64,000 bases of DNA from Clostridiales bacterium (GTDB lineage: Bacteria; Bacillota; Clostridia; Saccharofermentanales; Saccharofermentanaceae), in contig JAFWQF010000077.1 of the NCBI GenBank assembly GCA_017509205.1, positions 1 to 64,000 on the forward strand, read 5' to 3'. Shown in pieces: positions 1 to 7,391 of the stretch. Position numbers and translations under genes: made by a program. Below the pieces are notes generated by a model. It worked only from the letters and a program-made list of their open reading frames with translations. It did no database searches and had not been told where the DNA came from. Position 1 is the stretch's first letter; the number at the start of each line of letters is the position of its first letter.

Positions 1-1677
1 AATTACGGTGACCTCAAAGATATCTGGACAACCGCGGACTTTAAGGACGGCGGTGTTTCCGCATCGGTATGCACTCCGTACATGTGGAGTCTTTACGAAT
101 ACATTTGGGAATACAGTTTCAGGAAGTTCCTTCTTGATTCGAAGATCCTCACGCCGAAAGACGTAGACAAGAAACTCGGCGAAATGTATTACGGAAGACC
201 TTACTGGAACCTCTCAGTTGCAAAGCAGGCTTTGAGCGGAGTAGTCGGTTACCGTGAAAGGGAGTTCGATCAGGAGTACGGTATCAAGCCCACATATGAA
301 GGCGACGGCCACGTGACCAAAGCCACACCCGGTGCGCTCGTTCACATCGCGCGCATGGCTCTTGCACAGAAGAAGATCCTCAAGGAAAGAAACGAGAATG
401 CTGAAACGCTTAAGAGTGATCTTCTGAAGACTTACGAAGAGTACAGGAAGAATTACGACAACAATACTATCGATGACATCAAGGCGCGTTTTAAGAGCCT
501 GACCCACGACATATATCTGCACAGCGAGACGACTTATTTCTGGCAGATATTCATCAACACGATACATCAGTCGCTCTACAAGGACGGACTTCTCAAGTAC
601 GTATCTGAGAGCGAATACCTCACACTGCTCGGAAGCATCGAAAACATCTCGCATCTTCTTCCGTTCTATGCGATGTGGGATCTTTCAAGAAAGATAATCG
701 CTGATGAACAGTCGCTTTCATACTGGAAGGAAACATCAGCTGAGGAGATAGCGAAAAACATAGACAACGGTCTATATATGATCCCCGGCATGAAGGAGAT
801 AATAGACAAGTTCGGTTATCACTCTGATAAGGAGCTTGATGTTACATATCCATGCTACTATGAAGATCCGGTTCCGCTCATCGTATCCGTCAAGGACATG
901 CTCCCGCTCACTGGTGATTTCGGTCCTGAGAAGGACAAGAAGGAAGGACGCCTTAAGAGTGAAGCGATAATGCATGCACTTGAAGGAAAGCTTTCCGCTT
1001 CAAAATACAAAAAGGTTAAGAACAAGGTTGATGAGATGCGCCGCATGCTCTGGTGGCGTGAGGAATTCAGAGACGTTTCAACGAGGTTCTATTATCTGAT
1101 CCGCGTATACACAGTTGAGCTTTCCAAGACTTTGGCAGCAGAGGGTGTTCTTGATAAGCCGGAAGACATATGGATGCTCAAGGTCTCTAATGTCTGGGAT
1201 TATCTTGACGGAAAGCTCACTAAAGATGACCTGCATGAGATCATCGGCAAGAACAGAAGATACTACGATTCGTTCCGCAATTACATGAGCGAGAACGAGC
1301 TCGGTGTAGTGCTTAGCGGCAATGACAACGGCAGCGCAAAAACATCCGGAAACACGCTTAAGGGAATAGGCGCCAACAACGGCAAGATCACCGGAACCGC
1401 ACGTGTCATCTATGATTTCAGTGAGATCGACAGACTTCAGCAGAACGACATTCTCGTAACGAGATTCACCGATACCGGATGGACACCGAAGTTTGCGATC
1501 CTTTCAGGCATCGTCACCGAATACGGCGGAATACTCTGTCATGCGGCGATCGTATCGAGGGAATACGGAATCCCTGCGATCGTTAACTGCCATGACGCTC
1601 TTACTAAGATAAAAGACGGACAGACCATCACCATTGACGGCGCTACCGGTGTCGTTACGACAGGCGGGGAGAATTAA
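1..1677 (+). CDS. Rifampin-phosphotransferase/PEP-synthase-like dikinase, C-terminal part (5' truncated)
   Basis: The reading frame is open from base 1, so the gene starts upstream of the window; an ATG at 82 is internal. The last ~90 residues form the swivelling phosphohistidine domain of the PEP synthase/PPDK/rifampin phosphotransferase family. It has the motif ILCHAAIVSREYGIPA, in which the His at visible residue 514 is the expected phosphate carrier. No PEP/pyruvate-binding TIM barrel follows: the protein ends right after the His domain, as in rifampin phosphotransferases, which move the ATP beta-phosphate to a hydroxyl of a small molecule. The ~450 residues before it are a helical middle region that would bind the acceptor. 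The ATP-grasp half must lie off the left edge. The next gene starts 1 base after the stop. The substrate is unknown; the lipid genes downstream suggest a lipid or lipid precursor. Confidence 0.8.
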   Translation, partial: NYGDLKDIWTTADFKDGGVSASVCTPYMWSLYEYIWEYSFRKFLLDSKILTPKDVDKKLGEMYYGRPYWNLSVAKQALSGVVGYREREFDQEYGIKPTYEGDGHVTKATPGALVHIARMALAQKKILKERNENAETLKSDLLKTYEEYRKNYDNNTIDDIKARFKSLTHDIYLHSETTYFWQIFINTIHQSLYKDGLLKYVSESEYLTLLGSIENISHLLPFYAMWDLSRKIIADEQSLSYWKETSAEEIAKNIDNGLYMIPGMKEIIDKFGYHSDKELDVTYPCYYEDPVPLIVSVKDMLPLTGDFGPEKDKKEGRLKSEAIMHALEGKLSASKYKKVKNKVDEMRRMLWWREEFRDVSTRFYYLIRVYTVELSKTLAAEGVLDKPEDIWMLKVSNVWDYLDGKLTKDDLHEIIGKNRRYYDSFRNYMSENELGVVLSGNDNGSAKTSGNTLKGIGANNGKITGTARVIYDFSEIDRLQQNDILVTRFTDTGWTPKFAILSGIVTEYGGILCHAAIVSREYGIPAIVNCHDALTKIKDGQTITIDGATGVVTTGGEN

Positions 1678-1678
1678 C

Positions 1679-2296
1679 ATGATCGGAAAGTGGAACAAGT
1701 CTGTTATCGCCACATATGTCGGAATGCTTTTCGCGGTTGCTGCGGTATTCCTGATAATGAACGGCATTTTCGGATACGCGATGATGTGCTTCATGGCAGC
1801 AGGCATTTGCGACCTCTTTGACGGTACGATAGCAAGGATGTGCAAGAGAACCGAAGAGGAAAAGAATTTCGGCATTCAGCTTGATTCACTCGTTGATGTT
1901 GTAAGCTTTATTGCCGTTCCTCTCGTATTGATAATCAAGCTCTGCGGGATTACATGGTATTCGGTCACCGCATGTGTCATGTATGCGGTCTTCGGTGTTG
2001 CGAGACTTGCATATTTCAATGTGTGCCAGGAAGAAAACGAGGACAAGGATTCACCGATCAAATACTACACCGGAATGCCCGTCACTTATGCGGCGCTCAT
2101 CTTCCCGGTGATATATCTTCTGCATGTCTGGATGGGCAATGATGTCACTTCTTATCTGCTGTGTGCATGCATGGCCGTTATGGCTGTATTCTATATACTC
2201 AGGATAAAGTTCATCAAGCCGGGGAAGAAGGGATATATCTTCCTCATGCTTCTCGCGATCGCACTGTTTGTTCTTTACATCATATTCGGAAGATGA
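1679..2296 (+). CDS. pssA: CDP-alcohol phosphatidyltransferase, PssA-like
   Basis: Membrane enzyme of about 205 residues that swaps CMP of a CDP-alcohol lipid for a head-group alcohol; serine is the likely acceptor because a phosphatidylserine decarboxylase gene follows. The family signature is visible as DLFDGTIAR, then GIQLDSLVDVV, which supplies the metal-binding Asp residues. The gap between AR and G is 11 residues where 8 is usual. Several hydrophobic segments follow, consistent with about six membrane helices. The ATG at 1679 lies one base after the preceding stop and follows a GGGGAGAA ribosome site; it is preferred to more upstream in-frame starts that would overlap the previous gene. 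The stop overlaps the next start. PssA is the best call; another CDP-alcohol acceptor is possible. Confidence 0.85.
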   Translation: MIGKWNKSVIATYVGMLFAVAAVFLIMNGIFGYAMMCFMAAGICDLFDGTIARMCKRTEEEKNFGIQLDSLVDVVSFIAVPLVLIIKLCGITWYSVTACVMYAVFGVARLAYFNVCQEENEDKDSPIKYYTGMPVTYAALIFPVIYLLHVWMGNDVTSYLLCACMAVMAVFYILRIKFIKPGKKGYIFLMLLAIALFVLYIIFGR

Positions 2297-3159
2297 AGAT
2301 CTACGTAAGACAGGATAAGAGCTTTATCGAGGATCGCCAATATGGCGGGAAATCTTTGGAGCGCCTTTACAATACCTGGTACGGCAGAGCCCTTTCGAAG
2401 TTTATTCTCCTGCCTGTGTTTTCGACGATGGCAACTTCAAAGGACAGGAAGAGATCCAGTGTCAAAAAGATCGCTCCGTTCATTGAAGAATACAAGATAG
2501 ACATGAGTGATTTCGAGGAAAGAGACTACAGCTCGTTTGCTGATTTCTTTACGAGAAACATCAAGCCCGGAAAACGGCCTGCAGATTCCGATCCGTCAGT
2601 TGTCATCGCGCCCGCTGATTCAAAGTTGCTCTGCTATGACATAGGAAATGATCTAAAGTTTACCGTTAAGGGCAGCGTTTACACTCCGGATGAGATTGTG
2701 GGCAACATGATCGGCCTCGGCGGTTTTGCGGGCGGAAAAGCACTCGTGTTCAGGCTCTCGATGGATGACTATCATCACTACTGCCACATTGATTCCGGAA
2801 AGGTTTTTGATTCATTTGAGATCAAAGGAAAACTCCATACGGTGAGTTCGATCTCATCGAAGTACAAGATTTACAAAGAGAATCACCGCATCGTAAACAT
2901 CCTTGATACCGATCACTTCGGAAGAGTCATCTACATCGAAGTCGGCGCACTCCTTGTCGGAAGGATAAAGAACAACGGCAGGACCGTTTTCGAAAAGGGA
3001 CAGGAGAAAGGGTATTTCGAGCAGGGCGGATCCACGATCGTTCTGTTCTTCGAAAAGGACAGGATCAACATTGATCCTGATATCCTTGAAATGAGTGGAA
3101 ACGGGATAGAGACAAAGGTTAAAATGGGAGAACGTATCGGAGTTGCTTCAAATGTTTAA
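2293..3159 (+). CDS. psd: Phosphatidylserine decarboxylase proenzyme
   Basis: Converts phosphatidylserine to phosphatidylethanolamine at the membrane, using a pyruvoyl group made by self-cleavage. The 288-residue product carries the cleavage motif GGST near the C-terminus (EQGGSTIVLFF). Cutting before Ser247 would give a 42-residue alpha chain. The Asp/His-rich stretch RLSMDDYHHYCH and the later HTVSS are the family's conserved Asp and His sites. The ATG at 2293 overlaps the stop of the upstream pssA-like gene (ATGA), so the two are translationally coupled, which supports a serine-to-ethanolamine lipid route. The 3' end overlaps the following UbiA-type gene by 8 bases. No missing active-site residues were seen. 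Confidence 0.93.
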   Translation: MKIYVRQDKSFIEDRQYGGKSLERLYNTWYGRALSKFILLPVFSTMATSKDRKRSSVKKIAPFIEEYKIDMSDFEERDYSSFADFFTRNIKPGKRPADSDPSVVIAPADSKLLCYDIGNDLKFTVKGSVYTPDEIVGNMIGLGGFAGGKALVFRLSMDDYHHYCHIDSGKVFDSFEIKGKLHTVSSISSKYKIYKENHRIVNILDTDHFGRVIYIEVGALLVGRIKNNGRTVFEKGQEKGYFEQGGSTIVLFFEKDRINIDPDILEMSGNGIETKVKMGERIGVASNV

Positions 3160-4060
3160 GAGACTGTACATCTACTACAAAGAGAGATATCCGCTTCTTG
3201 CGAGACTCCTTCTCGGCGTAATCGTTTTCGGCGAGATCTATTTCATCATCCTGCTGAATTACGGCGTGCTCGATTTCAGGCTCGGCATGCAGGAAGTGAC
3301 AGGCGCATATACCGTTTTCGCCTTTCTCCTGTGGCTTCGTGTTGCAGATGATCTCAAGGATTATGAGACGGATAAGAAACTGTTCCCCGACAGACCTCTT
3401 GCGTCGGGCCGCGTCTACAAGAAAGACATCATAATCTCATGCATCTTCTTCCAGGCAATAGCGATCGCACTGAACATAATCTTCATGAATAACCTTCTGT
3501 TCTGCGCGATACTTTACGCATACGGATTCCTGATGAGAAACTGGTTCTTCCAGAAGGCTAAGATCCAGCCGAATCTTTTCGCGGCGCTCATTACGCACAA
3601 CCCCGTGCAGATGATAATCAACCTTTACATCATCTCTTTCACGGTCATCAAGTATCAGCTTAATCCGTTTTCCATCACTACTCTCATGACGCTCTGGACA
3701 CTGTATTTCCCGGCACTCATCTGGGAGGTATCAAGAAAGATCAGGGCGCCTAAGGACGAGACGGAATACGTCACTTATTCCAAGCTTTGGGGATACAAAA
3801 AAGCTGTATGGTTCGTGCTCGTTTTAACGATCGTCGATATCCTTACAAACATCGTTCTCGTATGGAATCTCAGTAAGCCGACTGTTGTGTTCTTCTGCGG
3901 CCTTACCACATGGATGACCATCAAGTTCCTGCAGTTTAAAAAGGATCCCGAGAGATTTGTTCTCGTTGAAAAAGTCGAACTCTACACATACATTCAGGAA
4001 AGCACGATGCTGCTTACGGTGGCAGGTTACATCTTCTGCAAGTGGAGAGGACTGATCTGA
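3152..4060 (+). CDS. UbiA-family prenyltransferase
   Basis: Integral membrane protein of about 302 residues with eight or nine hydrophobic segments. The first Asp-rich motif of UbiA enzymes is clear: RVADDLKDYETDKKLFPDRP, where the acidic residues hold Mg2+ and the prenyl diphosphate. A second acidic patch, PKDETEYVTYSKLWG, sits where the second Asp motif is expected. Family members move isoprenyl chains onto quinone precursors, heme, sugar phosphates or glycerol phosphates; the acceptor cannot be told here. No quinone or heme genes are nearby, only lipid genes and dikinases, so a lipid or phospho-lipid acceptor is inferred. The ATG at 3152 lies inside the end of psd. The stop overlaps the next start, so the operon is tightly coupled. 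Confidence 0.82.
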   Translation: MFKRLYIYYKERYPLLARLLLGVIVFGEIYFIILLNYGVLDFRLGMQEVTGAYTVFAFLLWLRVADDLKDYETDKKLFPDRPLASGRVYKKDIIISCIFFQAIAIALNIIFMNNLLFCAILYAYGFLMRNWFFQKAKIQPNLFAALITHNPVQMIINLYIISFTVIKYQLNPFSITTLMTLWTLYFPALIWEVSRKIRAPKDETEYVTYSKLWGYKKAVWFVLVLTIVDILTNIVLVWNLSKPTVVFFCGLTTWMTIKFLQFKKDPERFVLVEKVELYTYIQESTMLLTVAGYIFCKWRGLI

Positions 4061-6315
4061 TGTTCGGAGGCAAAGCCGACAATCTGATACTGATGAGAAA
4101 TGCCGGAATACCAGTTCCGGAGTTTGTCGTCGTAACTGACGGAAAGGCTCCTGAGATAACTTGGGAGATGAGTTCTGTCAGATCTTCGGCAGATGTTGAG
4201 GACGGCGCTTCCGACAGCTTCGCAGGCCAGTTTGATACTTTCCTCGGTGTTGCGAAAAACGAACTTCAGGAAAAGATAGATCTCTGCATGAAGTCTGCTT
4301 CAAATGAGGGTGCCGCAGAATACATTAAGCAGCGTGACATCGGCAGAGACGTTAAGATGAGTGTCATCGTCCAGAGGATGATAGATGCCGACGTATCAGG
4401 TGTAATGTTCACTTCCAATCCGCAGGGCATAATGAACGAATGCGTGATAACCGTCGGAAAGGGAACGGGCGACAACGTCGTTTCGGACAGGACGGATACG
4501 ACGAGTTACTATTTCAACACCAATGACGGCCTTTACTACTACGAAGGTGAAAAGGACCGCCTTACGTCTTCACAGATACACGAACTGATCAGGATCTCAG
4601 AAAAGATAAAAGAACTAATCGGCGATTATCTCGACATTGAATTCTCCGTAAAAGACGGGAAGATATACATCCTTCAGGCAAGAAAGATCACCACGTTTGC
4701 GGACAGCGATCCGTCTAAGTTCCTGATACTTGATAACAGCAACATAGTCGAGAGCTATCCGAATCTGAGTCTGCCTCTGACATGCGGTTTCGTCGGCTTT
4801 GTTTACAGCGGTGTCTTTGAAGGACTCTGCAGAAGGATCATAGGCGAAGGGAAATACTTAGATGCGTTAAAACCCGTTTTCGGTAACATGGTCGGAAACG
4901 TGAACGGACGCATGTACTACAAGATCTCCAACTGGTACACGCTCATCAAGTTCCTGCCGTTCAAGAAAAAGATCATCCCCGTATGGCAGGAGATGCTCGG
5001 CGTTAAGAACAAGACTTACGACAAAAAGCAGGACATGAAAGTATCCCTTGCAGAGCGCATGAGGATCAACCACCGCATCATTTCTTCGTTCCGGAATTCG
5101 CCGAAAGAGATGGAAAAGCTCAACGAAACGTTCATCAGGATCAACGAAGATTTCTATAAGTCCTATCACGACGGAATGAGCAACGAAGAACTCATTTCTC
5201 AGTTCCGCATAATCGAAAAGAAGCTTTTCGCGTGCTGGGACATAACGCTGATAAATGACCTTTACACTTTCGTGCACACCGGTCTTCTGAAGCACTTCCT
5301 CGCAAAGAAATACGATGATGCCGATGACAAGACGAATGAATTCCTGTCGGGCATCACGAACATCGAAAGCTTAAAGCCGGTTCGCGCAATGATCGATCTT
5401 GCGTATTCGAAAAAAGATCTTTCTGAAGAAGAGTACAATGTCAGGATGAACGAATACATTAAGCTCTATGGCGACAGAAACCTCGAGGAATTAAAACTCG
5501 AGAGCCCTACGTTCAGGACCAACCCCGAGCTGCTTGCCAAGAAGATCAGTGAGTATTGCGAGGACAGCGCGAAACTTGAAGAGATCCATAAGAGCATAAT
5601 GAGCGATGAAAAGCGCGACATGAAAGGCGAGAGCAGGGTTGTCAGAAAGCTTGCGGCAAAGTGTGCCACGGGCATCGCAAACAGGGAGATCTCGCGTCTT
5701 AACAGAAGCCGCATCTTCGGCATGGTCAGAGAGATCGTCAGAAGCCTCGGAAAGAACTTCTGCAGAGACGGATATATCGAAAATGAGAAGGACATCTTTT
5801 ATCTGACTTACGATGAGATGTTTAAGATGGTGAATGAACCGTTTGATGCAAGAGAGCGCATTTCTCAGCGCAGGAACGAATACCGCATGTATAAGTGCCT
5901 GCCGGCGTTCACGAGACTTGTTTTCGAGAAGGAGGAATTCTCCAAGCATCATGTGAACGTGAACTCTCACAAGATGATCTCAGAAAGCGGAGTTATGCAG
6001 GGCGTGCCTTGTTCGGGCGGAGTATCGGAAGGCGAAGCGCTCGTCATAGAAGACATTTCGATGCTGGAAAATTCGAAAGACAGGATACTTGTAACCAAGA
6101 TGACCGATCCGGGATGGGTGTTCTATCTTGCTTCGGCAAAAGGCGTAATATCACAGAAGGGTTCCATCCTTTCGCATACTGCTATAATATCGCGTGAGAT
6201 AGGCATACCGTCGATAGTCGGCGTGGCAGATGTCATGACGAGGATCAATACCGGAGACATCGTCAGGATGGACGGTTCTTCCGGCAGGGTAGAGATAGTC
6301 AGAAGGAAATCATAA
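4060..6315 (+). CDS. Rifampin-phosphotransferase-like dikinase (ATP-grasp plus phosphohistidine domain)
   Basis: About 751 residues. The N-terminal ATP-grasp part shows MFGGKADNLILM, then SSVRSSADVEDGASDSFAGQ, DADVSGVMFTSNP and DIEFSVKDGKIYILQAR, all typical of PEP synthase and rifampin phosphotransferase. A long helical middle region follows, and the C-terminal domain has the phosphate-carrier motif GSILSHTAIISREIGIP (His706). There is no PEP-binding barrel, so the architecture matches rifampin phosphotransferase rather than true PEP synthase. The segment between GGKADNL and VRSS is only about 40 residues, far shorter than usual. A GTG at 4042 is in frame, but the ATG at 4060 overlaps the previous stop, follows a GGAGAGGA ribosome site and begins at the usual family start, so it is chosen. 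It resembles the first gene of the operon; the acceptor is unknown. Confidence 0.83.
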   Translation: MFGGKADNLILMRNAGIPVPEFVVVTDGKAPEITWEMSSVRSSADVEDGASDSFAGQFDTFLGVAKNELQEKIDLCMKSASNEGAAEYIKQRDIGRDVKMSVIVQRMIDADVSGVMFTSNPQGIMNECVITVGKGTGDNVVSDRTDTTSYYFNTNDGLYYYEGEKDRLTSSQIHELIRISEKIKELIGDYLDIEFSVKDGKIYILQARKITTFADSDPSKFLILDNSNIVESYPNLSLPLTCGFVGFVYSGVFEGLCRRIIGEGKYLDALKPVFGNMVGNVNGRMYYKISNWYTLIKFLPFKKKIIPVWQEMLGVKNKTYDKKQDMKVSLAERMRINHRIISSFRNSPKEMEKLNETFIRINEDFYKSYHDGMSNEELISQFRIIEKKLFACWDITLINDLYTFVHTGLLKHFLAKKYDDADDKTNEFLSGITNIESLKPVRAMIDLAYSKKDLSEEEYNVRMNEYIKLYGDRNLEELKLESPTFRTNPELLAKKISEYCEDSAKLEEIHKSIMSDEKRDMKGESRVVRKLAAKCATGIANREISRLNRSRIFGMVREIVRSLGKNFCRDGYIENEKDIFYLTYDEMFKMVNEPFDARERISQRRNEYRMYKCLPAFTRLVFEKEEFSKHHVNVNSHKMISESGVMQGVPCSGGVSEGEALVIEDISMLENSKDRILVTKMTDPGWVFYLASAKGVISQKGSILSHTAIISREIGIPSIVGVADVMTRINTGDIVRMDGSSGRVEIVRRKS

Positions 6316-6317
6316 AA

Positions 6318-7391
6318 GTGTTCGAGATAGTCAGATTTGATACGGAAGAAAAATACATTAAGGACTTCATAGCCCTTAAGAAGAAGCTCTACACGAGAAT
6401 GAACAATACCGAGAGCGTGTCTGACATCACGCGCATCCTTACGGGTACCCATCCGCTTTCACATTATTTCGAACTGGATAAATTCCTGATCTATGAGGAC
6501 GGGAAGGTCTGCGGAAGATTCTGCTTTACGAGATATCCGGATGATCCGGTTTTGTACATCGGTTTCTATGAATGCGTTAACCGCGACGATGCCGCGAAGT
6601 TTCTTTTCGATAATGCTGCAAGGATAGCAGGAGAGATGGGGTATAAGACCATCACGGGCCCGGTCGACTGTTCATTCTGGATCAAGTACAGACTCAAGAT
6701 AAACCTTTTCGAAAAGCTCCCTTACACGGGAGAGCCGTACAACCTGGATTACTATCTCAAGCAGTTCACGGACAACGGATATGAGGTTTGTGAACACTAC
6801 ATTTCCAACTATTTCACGAAGATCGTCGAGCCTGATCCGAAGTATGTTAAGAGGCTTAATGAATTCAGGGCTAAGGGATATGAGATAAGAAGTCCGCTGC
6901 CTGAAGAGTTTGACAAGGTCATCGGCGAGATCTATGTGCTGATAACCAGGCTTTACAGCAACTTCCCGATATACCGAGGCCTGACCGAGGAAGAATTCAG
7001 ACGTGTCTTCAATGATTACAGGCTGATCCTTGACATGCGTTACGTGAAGATGGCTTATTACAAAGGTGAGCCCGTTGCGTTCTTCATAGGTGTTCCGGAT
7101 TACGGCGCAAGGGTTTATAACACGAAGAATCTTATCAATCTTCTTGGCGTACTGAAGAGGAAAAAGAAGGCGGAGGCATATGTCCTGCCTTATCTCGGAG
7201 CTCTTCCCGAACATGCTGGCTTAGGCGCTGCGCTTACGGGTGCGATGATGGTACAGCTCAAGGAAACGGGCGGTGAGAGCATAGGGGCTCTGTGCAGGGA
7301 CGGAAAGATCTCAGGTCACTATGCAAAGGTATTTTTCGACAACGAGTACGAGTACGTTCTGCTCTCGAGAGAAATCCCCCAAAACGCCTGA
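6318..7391 (+). CDS. GNAT-like acyltransferase, last gene of the lipid/dikinase operon
   Basis: A 357-residue soluble protein with GTG start 2 bases after the preceding stop and an AGAAGG ribosome site inside the upstream gene. The N-terminal half has an acetyltransferase-like pattern: VCGRFCFTRYPDD, then YIGFYECVNRDDAAKFLF and GYKTITGPVDCSFW. The G-x-x-GP step resembles YghO-type GNAT proteins. The second half (MAYYKGEPVAFFIGVPD, then LGAALTGAMMVQLKE) looks like another GNAT-type core. I recognise the fold type only by pattern. The context of a PssA-like enzyme, Psd, UbiA and two dikinases suggests acylation of an amine on a lipid or conjugate, but this is inference. No membrane segments or signal peptide are visible. 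Confidence 0.55.
   Translation: MFEIVRFDTEEKYIKDFIALKKKLYTRMNNTESVSDITRILTGTHPLSHYFELDKFLIYEDGKVCGRFCFTRYPDDPVLYIGFYECVNRDDAAKFLFDNAARIAGEMGYKTITGPVDCSFWIKYRLKINLFEKLPYTGEPYNLDYYLKQFTDNGYEVCEHYISNYFTKIVEPDPKYVKRLNEFRAKGYEIRSPLPEEFDKVIGEIYVLITRLYSNFPIYRGLTEEEFRRVFNDYRLILDMRYVKMAYYKGEPVAFFIGVPDYGARVYNTKNLINLLGVLKRKKKAEAYVLPYLGALPEHAGLGAALTGAMMVQLKETGGESIGALCRDGKISGHYAKVFFDNEYEYVLLSREIPQNA

Follow-up and report, generated by a model that had tools for sequence, protein, structure and literature searches.

Phospholipids of archaea are made by a pathway comprising GGGPS, DGGGPS, CarS, Ass and Asd, and CarS and the bacterial CdsA discriminate between archaeal and bacterial substrates (PMC9385802). 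Archaeal-type lipid genes also occur in bacteria: the pathway predicted for FCB-group bacteria and Ca. Cloacimonetes includes GGGPS and a DGGGPS-like UbiA protein, with CarS undetected (PMC7852524). A further system of relevance is rifampin phosphotransferase (RPH), which combines an ATP-grasp domain, an acceptor domain, a C-terminal swivel His and a catalytic Arg-Glu without a PEP barrel; its catalytic residues have been described, and distant RPH clades have diverged substrates, the C. difficile homologue giving no rifampin resistance (PMC4844700). The locus described here, from a member of the Bacillota, resembles the archaeal pathway in having CarS, a DGGGPS-like UbiA protein, a CDP-alcohol serine transferase and a decarboxylase, all in one operon, but differs from it in that no GGGP synthase was detected in the genus. 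With respect to the FCB pathway the situation is reversed, as CarS is present here and GGGPS is absent; the genes are also grouped compactly in a single operon.

The window, that is, the whole 64,000-nucleotide stretch that was analysed, begins with six genes that a preliminary description had joined into an operon on account of their overlapping or abutting ends. This is borne out, as all six are present on the plus strand (Table 1); however, the unit is larger than had been reported. The start of the window is a contig edge, at which the 5' end of the first gene (the dikinase DK1) is cut, leaving that gene incomplete. The first 141 bases are identical to the end of contig C20 of the same genome, and joining the two contigs across this exact overlap restores DK1 as an open frame of 838 codons and adds a seventh, previously overlooked gene 11 bp upstream of it, a homologue of the CDP-archaeol synthase CarS (L090:9200-9802). 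At the junctions of the six genes in the window, neighbours share 4, about 8 or 19 bases, or gaps of 1-2 bases lie between them. The full unit consists of CarS, DK1, a phosphatidylserine-synthase-like gene (PSS), a phosphatidylserine-decarboxylase-like gene (PSD), a UbiA-like gene, a second dikinase (DK2) and a tandem GNAT; in many genomes it also includes an acyl-activating AMP ligase, which is common in relatives and had likewise been missed.

Table 1. Genes of the operon in the window and on the adjoining contig.
Feature	Position	Strand	Basis or remark
DK1, RPH-like dikinase, proposed lipid-alcohol kinase	1..1677	+	3' two thirds in window
DK1 front and CarS	contig C20 = L090:9200-10794		outside window
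PSS, CDP-alcohol phosphatidyltransferase, archaetidylserine/phosphatidylserine synthase type	1679..2296	+	PF01066
PSD, phosphatidylserine/archaetidylserine decarboxylase, GGST self-cleavage motif	2293..3159	+	PF02666 2e-46
UbiA-family prenyltransferase, nearest archaeal DGGGP synthase	about 3152..4060, alternative start 3143	+	NCBIfam, PDB, predicted fold
DK2, second RPH-like dikinase, shortened ATP-grasp front	4042..6315	+	PF01326, PF00391
Tandem GNAT acyltransferase, closing the unit in the window's clade	6318..7391	+	predicted fold

The complete order from CarS to GNAT was found in 26 other bacterial loci, mostly of gut Clostridia (27 loci showed it, from which one likely duplicate was removed). 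Because the whole order recurs in these 26 loci while the flanking genes differ and are unrelated between loci, the neighbourhood is a conserved unit beyond chance, which disposes of the concern raised in the preliminary description that the genes might rarely co-occur. Among 392 Clostridia genomes, CarS was detected at E<=1e-11 in nine, which cover all seven genomes with this UbiA, a co-occurrence with a hypergeometric probability of 1e-13 when relatedness is ignored. The unit is nevertheless rare, since a CarS search of 398 genomes of the phylum matched the own genome alone.

CarS is assigned on profile and motifs: homologues in the operons score above the Pfam cut-off for PF01864 (74.6 and 55 bits against 22), and the copy of the own genome (G000:C20) scores 70 bits. 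The protein has the characteristics of the CarS family, being a membrane protein of about 175-200 amino acids whose profile matches Aeropyrum CarS (5guf) at 2.5e-8 and which keeps the GDxKT and KRRLxIexG motifs. Many other PF01864 matches, of about 290 amino acids, were taken as CdsA and not CarS. The head-group genes are more ambiguous. PSS scores 75.6 bits with the NCBIfam model for archaetidylserine synthase and 71.3 bits with that for pssA, both below cut-off, the best PDB match of its profile is the CDP-DAG--serine phosphatidyltransferase 7pow, and for neither PSS nor PSD do the scores separate archaeal from bacterial types. All 15 operon genomes of the genus carry exactly one PSD, beside UbiA, which favours the archaeal-type pathway proposed below. 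On the other hand, the PSD of the operon being the single copy in its genome and the nearly equal score of PSS as bacterial pssA, together with loci L049, L050 and L056, in which PSS and PSD are separated from the other operon genes, would fit ordinary phosphatidylethanolamine synthesis, with PSS and PSD acting on diacylglycerol lipids, CarS substituting for CdsA and the remaining genes co-transcribed for unrelated reasons. We consider this improbable, however, as examination of the own genome family by family identified a separate CdsA-like match and a second CDP-alcohol transferase (PgsA-like) elsewhere, as CarS, UbiA and the dikinases travel as a group across distant Clostridia with unrelated flanks, and as an independent variant (L091) repeats the combination of UbiA, dikinase, CarS and PSS.

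The UbiA-like protein belongs to the UbiA superfamily, as it carries the Asp-rich motif DDLKDYETD, its key positions are invariant and its model (pLDDT 86) matches UbiA folds; its scores with PF01040 (29.5 bits against a cut-off of 34.2) and the NCBIfam model PRK13592 (9e-117) lie below the cut-offs. The top folds are 7bpu (Z 18.4) and 6m31 (Z 17.8), the next UbiA reaching 16.9, and 6m31 is also the closest PDB relative in sequence (profile match, E 0.003). By sequence and predicted fold, the nearest solved relative thus appears to be the archaeal DGGGP synthase, the likeness being weak (13% identity). The tandem GNAT, present in 30 related loci, matches no Pfam family above cut-off; its AlphaFold model (pLDDT 88) resembles the tandem GNAT folds 2wpw and 5kf2 (Z about 20), and we presume a resemblance to the bacterial GNAT of ceramide synthase type.

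RPH-like dikinases are widespread, mostly uncharacterised and usually mis-named PEP synthase. Both dikinases of the operon had been described beforehand as RPH-like proteins without a PEP barrel, and their domains and best PDB match agree. DK1 contains PF00391 in the window and PF01326 in relatives, and its best PDB match is the rifampin phosphotransferase 5fbs; DK2 contains PF01326 and PF00391, keeps the swivel His in the alignment with 5fbs and has the Arg-Glu motif; its ATP-grasp front is shortened, the Pfam PPDK_N match beginning at profile position 103. The architecture is therefore that of RPH-type dikinases, with an ATP-grasp domain in front, a catalytic Arg-Glu and a C-terminal swivel His. 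Both proteins end after PF00391 and no PEP/pyruvate-binding barrel family was found in either, so identity as PEP synthase or PPDK is ruled out by domain layout; on layout and best PDB match, the two do not group with true PEP synthases. Nor are they RPH proper, for which we required a score above the RPH model or >42% identity to RPH-Lm: truncated DK1 and DK2 reach 141.6 and 195 bits against a cut-off of 999 and, unlike RPH, they stand in a lipid and not a rifampin context. DK2 always adjoins UbiA.

The best clue to the role of DK1 is its exchange for other lipid kinases, a feature absent from the preliminary description. DK1 is missing from five loci (L040, L045, L053, L054 and L055), in which a DAG kinase (three loci) or a PF01148-like gene (two loci) stands directly before CarS; neither stands there in any of the 36 DK1-bearing loci, and the tree requires about three exchanges. 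The prokaryotic diacylglycerol/undecaprenol kinase (PF01219) thus apparently stands in for DK1 in the operon, although it is an unrelated small membrane protein with other chemistry. Both matches to PF01148 (the CTP-dependent lipid-kinase type, which includes phytol and dolichol kinases) are weak and below Pfam's cut-off, and NCBIfam was uninformative on the identity of the small replacement kinases. The replacement of DK1 before CarS by non-homologous kinases in five loci is good evidence for a lipid alcohol as the phosphate acceptor of DK1. The same exchange bears on the prodigiosin ligases PigC and RedH, which have the dikinase architecture in common with DK1 and DK2 but a bond-forming role, and against whose models both proteins score comparably to RPH. 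A dikinase acting as such a ligase might couple an amine with an acyl or prenyl moiety in a secreted or signalling natural product, for which the GNAT and AMP ligase would be typical tailoring enzymes and which would suit the scattered distribution. We regard such a conjugate as very improbable, since replacement by DAG-kinase-type genes suits a kinase and not a ligase, the context is phospholipid synthesis with prodigiosin-type partners absent, and the operon borders show no recurrent genes for export, resistance or carrier proteins.

The gene content, order and distribution of the unit, the exchange of its kinase and its active-site residues are observed directly; from them we infer every substrate of the following pathway, in which the chains and their stereochemistry, like the parts played by DK2, GNAT and the ligase, are putative. 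UbiA, with DK2, would attach a prenyl chain to a glycerol-based acceptor, and GNAT, together with the AMP ligase in genomes that encode one, would add an acyl group, the latter being the weakest step. DK1 would then use the RPH mechanism to phosphorylate the resulting lipid alcohol at its free hydroxyl, the phosphate passing from ATP via His to the lipid with release of AMP and Pi, to give a phosphatidate-like lipid; we propose this step because of the non-homologous replacement and the conservation of the active site. Judging from family membership, CarS would convert the product to a CDP-lipid, PSS would swap CMP for serine and PSD would decarboxylate the serine lipid to an ethanolamine lipid. 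To our knowledge, the lipid-alcohol kinase step, the second dikinase, the tandem GNAT and the AMP ligase have no archaeal counterpart. We therefore put forward tentatively, at somewhat under an even chance, that the operon makes a second phospholipid class beside the CdsA/PgsA lipids, with an ethanolamine head, one or more ether-linked and probably isoprenoid chains and archaeal-type finishing. The preliminary description, which had envisaged a phosphorylated, prenylated or acylated lipid, pointed in the right direction but missed the closeness to the archaeal pathway; its remark that no described pathway has this set stands, as none was found in the open-access literature.

The results on GGGP synthase, glycerol-1-phosphate dehydrogenase and prenyl-diphosphate synthases count against the proposed pathway, as do the limits noted above for PSS, PSD, UbiA and the PF01148-like genes. 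In 39 genomes of the genus, including the own genome, no PF01884 match exceeded the cut-off in a search that detected the B. subtilis and archaeal control sequences, and therefore the usual opening step of ether-lipid synthesis is missing; eight weak partial PcrB/GGGPS matches in the genus each lay below cut-off. Strong PF13685 genes (glycerol-1-phosphate-dehydrogenase-like) occur in 12 of 15 operon genomes versus 12 of 24 others, which is not a significant tie to the operon (p 0.09), and the gene of this type near the operon in genome G007 (L077:2682-3734) probably reflects local synteny. A motif search of the operon flanks for geranylgeranyl reductase revealed no flavoprotein. Most genomes have one PF00348 synthase, and no extra prenyl-diphosphate synthase tied to the operon was found in the genus. 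A genus without a dedicated prenyl synthase, many of the operon loci being from rumen or herbivore gut, and the breakdown of chlorophyll in ruminant guts (PMC2964658) could point to salvage, in which DK1 and DK2 would act successively on an isoprenoid alcohol from the diet, either chlorophyll-derived phytol or geranylgeraniol, yielding a prenyl phosphate and then a diphosphate for UbiA, with CarS, PSS and PSD completing the lipid. Two kinases and a prenyltransferase are indeed in the unit, and the families that replace DK1 (DAG/undecaprenol kinase type and PF01148 type) would suit a prenol as well. We nevertheless think salvage unlikely, as DK1 or its substitute always adjoins CarS and UbiA only sometimes, DK2 persists where DK1 has been swapped or lost (L032 and L051), and the PF00348 synthase of most genomes means that the cell need not import prenols.

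For the ether-lipid pathway proposed above, the distant variant L091 is informative: it contains a dikinase, UbiA, CarS, a fusion of HMG-CoA reductase with a kinase-like domain, and PSS, and the fusion points to isoprenoids. HMG-CoA reductase was found in only 6 of 392 Clostridia genomes; it is linked to the operon in L091 alone and in none of the window's group, which counts against the proposal, and the other HMG-CoA reductase loci of the class have no operon genes nearby. It is possible, though on balance doubtful, that gut-dwelling and plant-degrading Clostridia produce, in the absence of GGGP synthase, an ethanolamine phospholipid of archaeal type (isoprenoid-ether or mixed acyl/prenyl), their lipid kinases being dikinases of the RPH/PEP-synthase type. 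If so, bacteria of ordinary gut phyla would possess a compact membrane-lipid module of archaeal type, and the 'lipid divide' between bacteria and archaea would have been crossed a second time, here with a kinase chemistry new to lipids; this would bear on how ether lipids serve as archaeal biomarkers in gut and soil, and RPH-like dikinases would gain a native role as lipid kinases. Confirmation would establish an undescribed bacterial membrane lipid pathway in plant-digesting gut Clostridia. The operon is carried by Butyrivibrio sp. XPD2006 (locus L036), which makes the lipid question directly testable.

The preliminary description reported a six-gene operon joining two rifampin phosphotransferase (RPH)-like dikinases (DK1 and DK2) with phospholipid, prenyl and acyl transferases, and all six genes were found in the window as described. 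The first base of the window is also the first base of contig C78, so that DK1 is incomplete in it. A search of the same genome for CDP-archaeol synthase (CarS) gave a match at the end of contig C20, whose final 141 bases are identical to the initial 141 bases of the window; when the contigs are joined, DK1 becomes an uninterrupted frame of 838 codons, beginning 11 bp after the end of CarS on C20. Therefore, the complete operon in this genome is CarS-DK1-PSS-PSD-UbiA-DK2-GNAT, in which PSS and PSD are phosphatidylserine synthase-like and decarboxylase-like genes.

With the UbiA protein as query, 35 loci were found in public genomes, and gene order was read by tblastn in these and in stretches from related genomes. 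The seven-gene, co-directional order was counted in 27 loci, one pair of which has a common sequence and is probably one strain. Among the carriers are Saccharofermentans-like MAGs from the rumen, Butyrivibrio sp. XPD2006, gut Clostridia of rabbit, horse and deer, and one complete genome of 3.6 Mb (L070); a variant with a substituted kinase occurs in Family XIII MAGs. A GH3 glycosidase follows the operon in close relatives of the window, and an AMP-binding acyl ligase (present in 19 loci) follows GNAT in other lineages; as the flanking genes vary between lineages, the operon borders mark the limits of the unit itself. The operon is patchily distributed (15/35 genomes of the genus, 7/392 of the class), and the placement of Butyrivibrio inside other genera in the UbiA tree suggests horizontal transfer. 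UbiA and DK2 form a core, never apart wherever the contig permits a look, and the Eubacterium yurii locus, near which no other operon gene was seen, suggests that they are the smallest working pair. Locus L051 contains UbiA-DK2-ligase-GNAT; PSS-PSD lies 3' of the ligase in L049, L050 and L056 and was not seen in L041.

Features of the operon and of related loci
Feature	Location	Remark
DK1	window:1-1677 (+)	
PSS	window:1679-2296 (+)	
PSD	window:2293-3159 (+)	
UbiA-like	window:~3152-4060 (+)	
DK2	window:4042-6315 (+)	
GNAT	window:6318-7391 (+)	
DK2 ATP-grasp stretch	window:4042-4200	first Lys loop to VRSS unusually short in window's clade
GH3 glycosidase	window:7496-10075	3' of operon in window's clade; swapped order: GH3 C-domain, Fn3-like, N-domain
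Large membrane protein	L090:6337-9195 (C20 end)	~950 aa; ends ~5 bp before CarS; window's clade only; no Pfam family found for L024 homologue
UbiA-DK2 alone	L032:7992-11194	E. yurii isolate; adjoins DNA ligase gene
DK1-PSD junction	L072:5629-5911	no PSS between them; same-genus L070 has PSS
HMG-CoA reductase with C-terminal ecdysteroid-kinase/APH-like domain	L091:6130-8901 (-)	923 aa; between CarS and PSS
Decayed operon	L092:8875-11300	genome G121; shortened CarS; DK1 front fused in frame to PSD remnant

CarS matches the Pfam CDP-archaeol synthase family far over the cut-off, Aeropyrum CarS being the closest solved protein. PSS scores almost equally as archaetidylserine and phosphatidylserine synthase, and PSD carries the GGST processing motif. 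For UbiA, the sole match among PDB sequences was the DGGGP synthase (DGGGPS) of the archaeal lipid pathway, and the best fold matches of its AlphaFold model (pLDDT 86) were DGGGPS structures (7bpu, Z 18.4, 3.8 Å over 270; 6m31, Z 17.8), followed by ApUbiA (Z 16.9); given this small gap, the predicted closeness to DGGGPS is a lean rather than a proof. The GNAT model (pLDDT 88) is a tandem GNAT resembling 2wpw and 5kf2 (Z ~20), a predicted fold that gives no indication of substrate. Both dikinases align piecewise with RPH over most of their length, have no PEP barrel downstream of the swivel-His region, and in most copies retain the swivel His together with the Arg-Glu residues reported as catalytic (PMC4844700).

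The strongest functional evidence is an exchange of kinases beside CarS. DK1 is absent in five loci: L040, L045 and L053 have a prokaryotic DAG kinase gene (PF01219, over cut-off) whose end reaches the CarS start or lies immediately upstream of it, and in L054 and L055 the preceding gene encodes a small membrane protein with a below-threshold match to PF01148, a family that includes phytol, dolichol and CTP-dependent DAG kinases. Neither gene was found in the 36 DK1-bearing loci, some of which have a close upstream contig cut. The UbiA tree indicates approximately three exchanges, with full support not on every separating branch. Because unrelated kinases occupy one place, the most likely role of DK1 is to phosphorylate a lipid alcohol, yielding the CarS substrate.

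The operon would work similarly to the archaeal finishing pathway, but GGGP synthase (GGGPS), sought throughout the genus, was not found, and the operon is therefore not classed with that pathway. FCB-group bacteria show the reverse gap, having GGGPS and DGGGPS with no CarS detected (PMC7852524), whereas this operon has CarS without GGGPS. Most genomes have one ordinary prenyl-diphosphate synthase; the search of the window's own genome gave none, probably owing to an assembly gap. Many genomes carry glycerol-1-phosphate-dehydrogenase-like genes, with no significant association with the operon. Enzymes for ordinary phospholipids seem to be retained: a weak ~290-aa PF01864 match, separate from the operon CarS, is read as a putative CdsA, and a second CDP-alcohol transferase outside the operon as a putative PgsA. 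CarS and CdsA reportedly discriminate archaeal from bacterial substrates (PMC9385802). As CdsA is kept and CarS added with a DGGGPS-like UbiA and serine/ethanolamine head-group enzymes, the operon would most simply make a second phospholipid of ether or prenyl type. In the genus, each of the 15 genomes with the operon contains a single PSD, that of the operon (6/20 without the operon have another); the operon is therefore likely the sole ethanolamine-phospholipid route of its carriers. With the GGGPS step missing and a neutral-lipid kinase present, the backbone would probably be built unphosphorylated and phosphorylated late; alternatively, the kinases may serve prenol salvage, and the data accommodate both. 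Roles for DK2, GNAT and the ligase are suggested by position only. No published description of this operon was found in the open-access literature searched.

Beyond the operon genomes, true CarS occurred in only two genomes of the class sample, G121 and G223. In G223, an independent cluster (L091) comprises a dikinase, a very divergent UbiA, CarS, an HMG-CoA reductase fusion and PSS. As HMG-CoA reductase is rare (6/392 genomes of the class; absent from the window's own group), its place here links operons of this kind to isoprenoids. In G121, the DK1-PSD fusion arose by deletion, with loss of the intervening genes.
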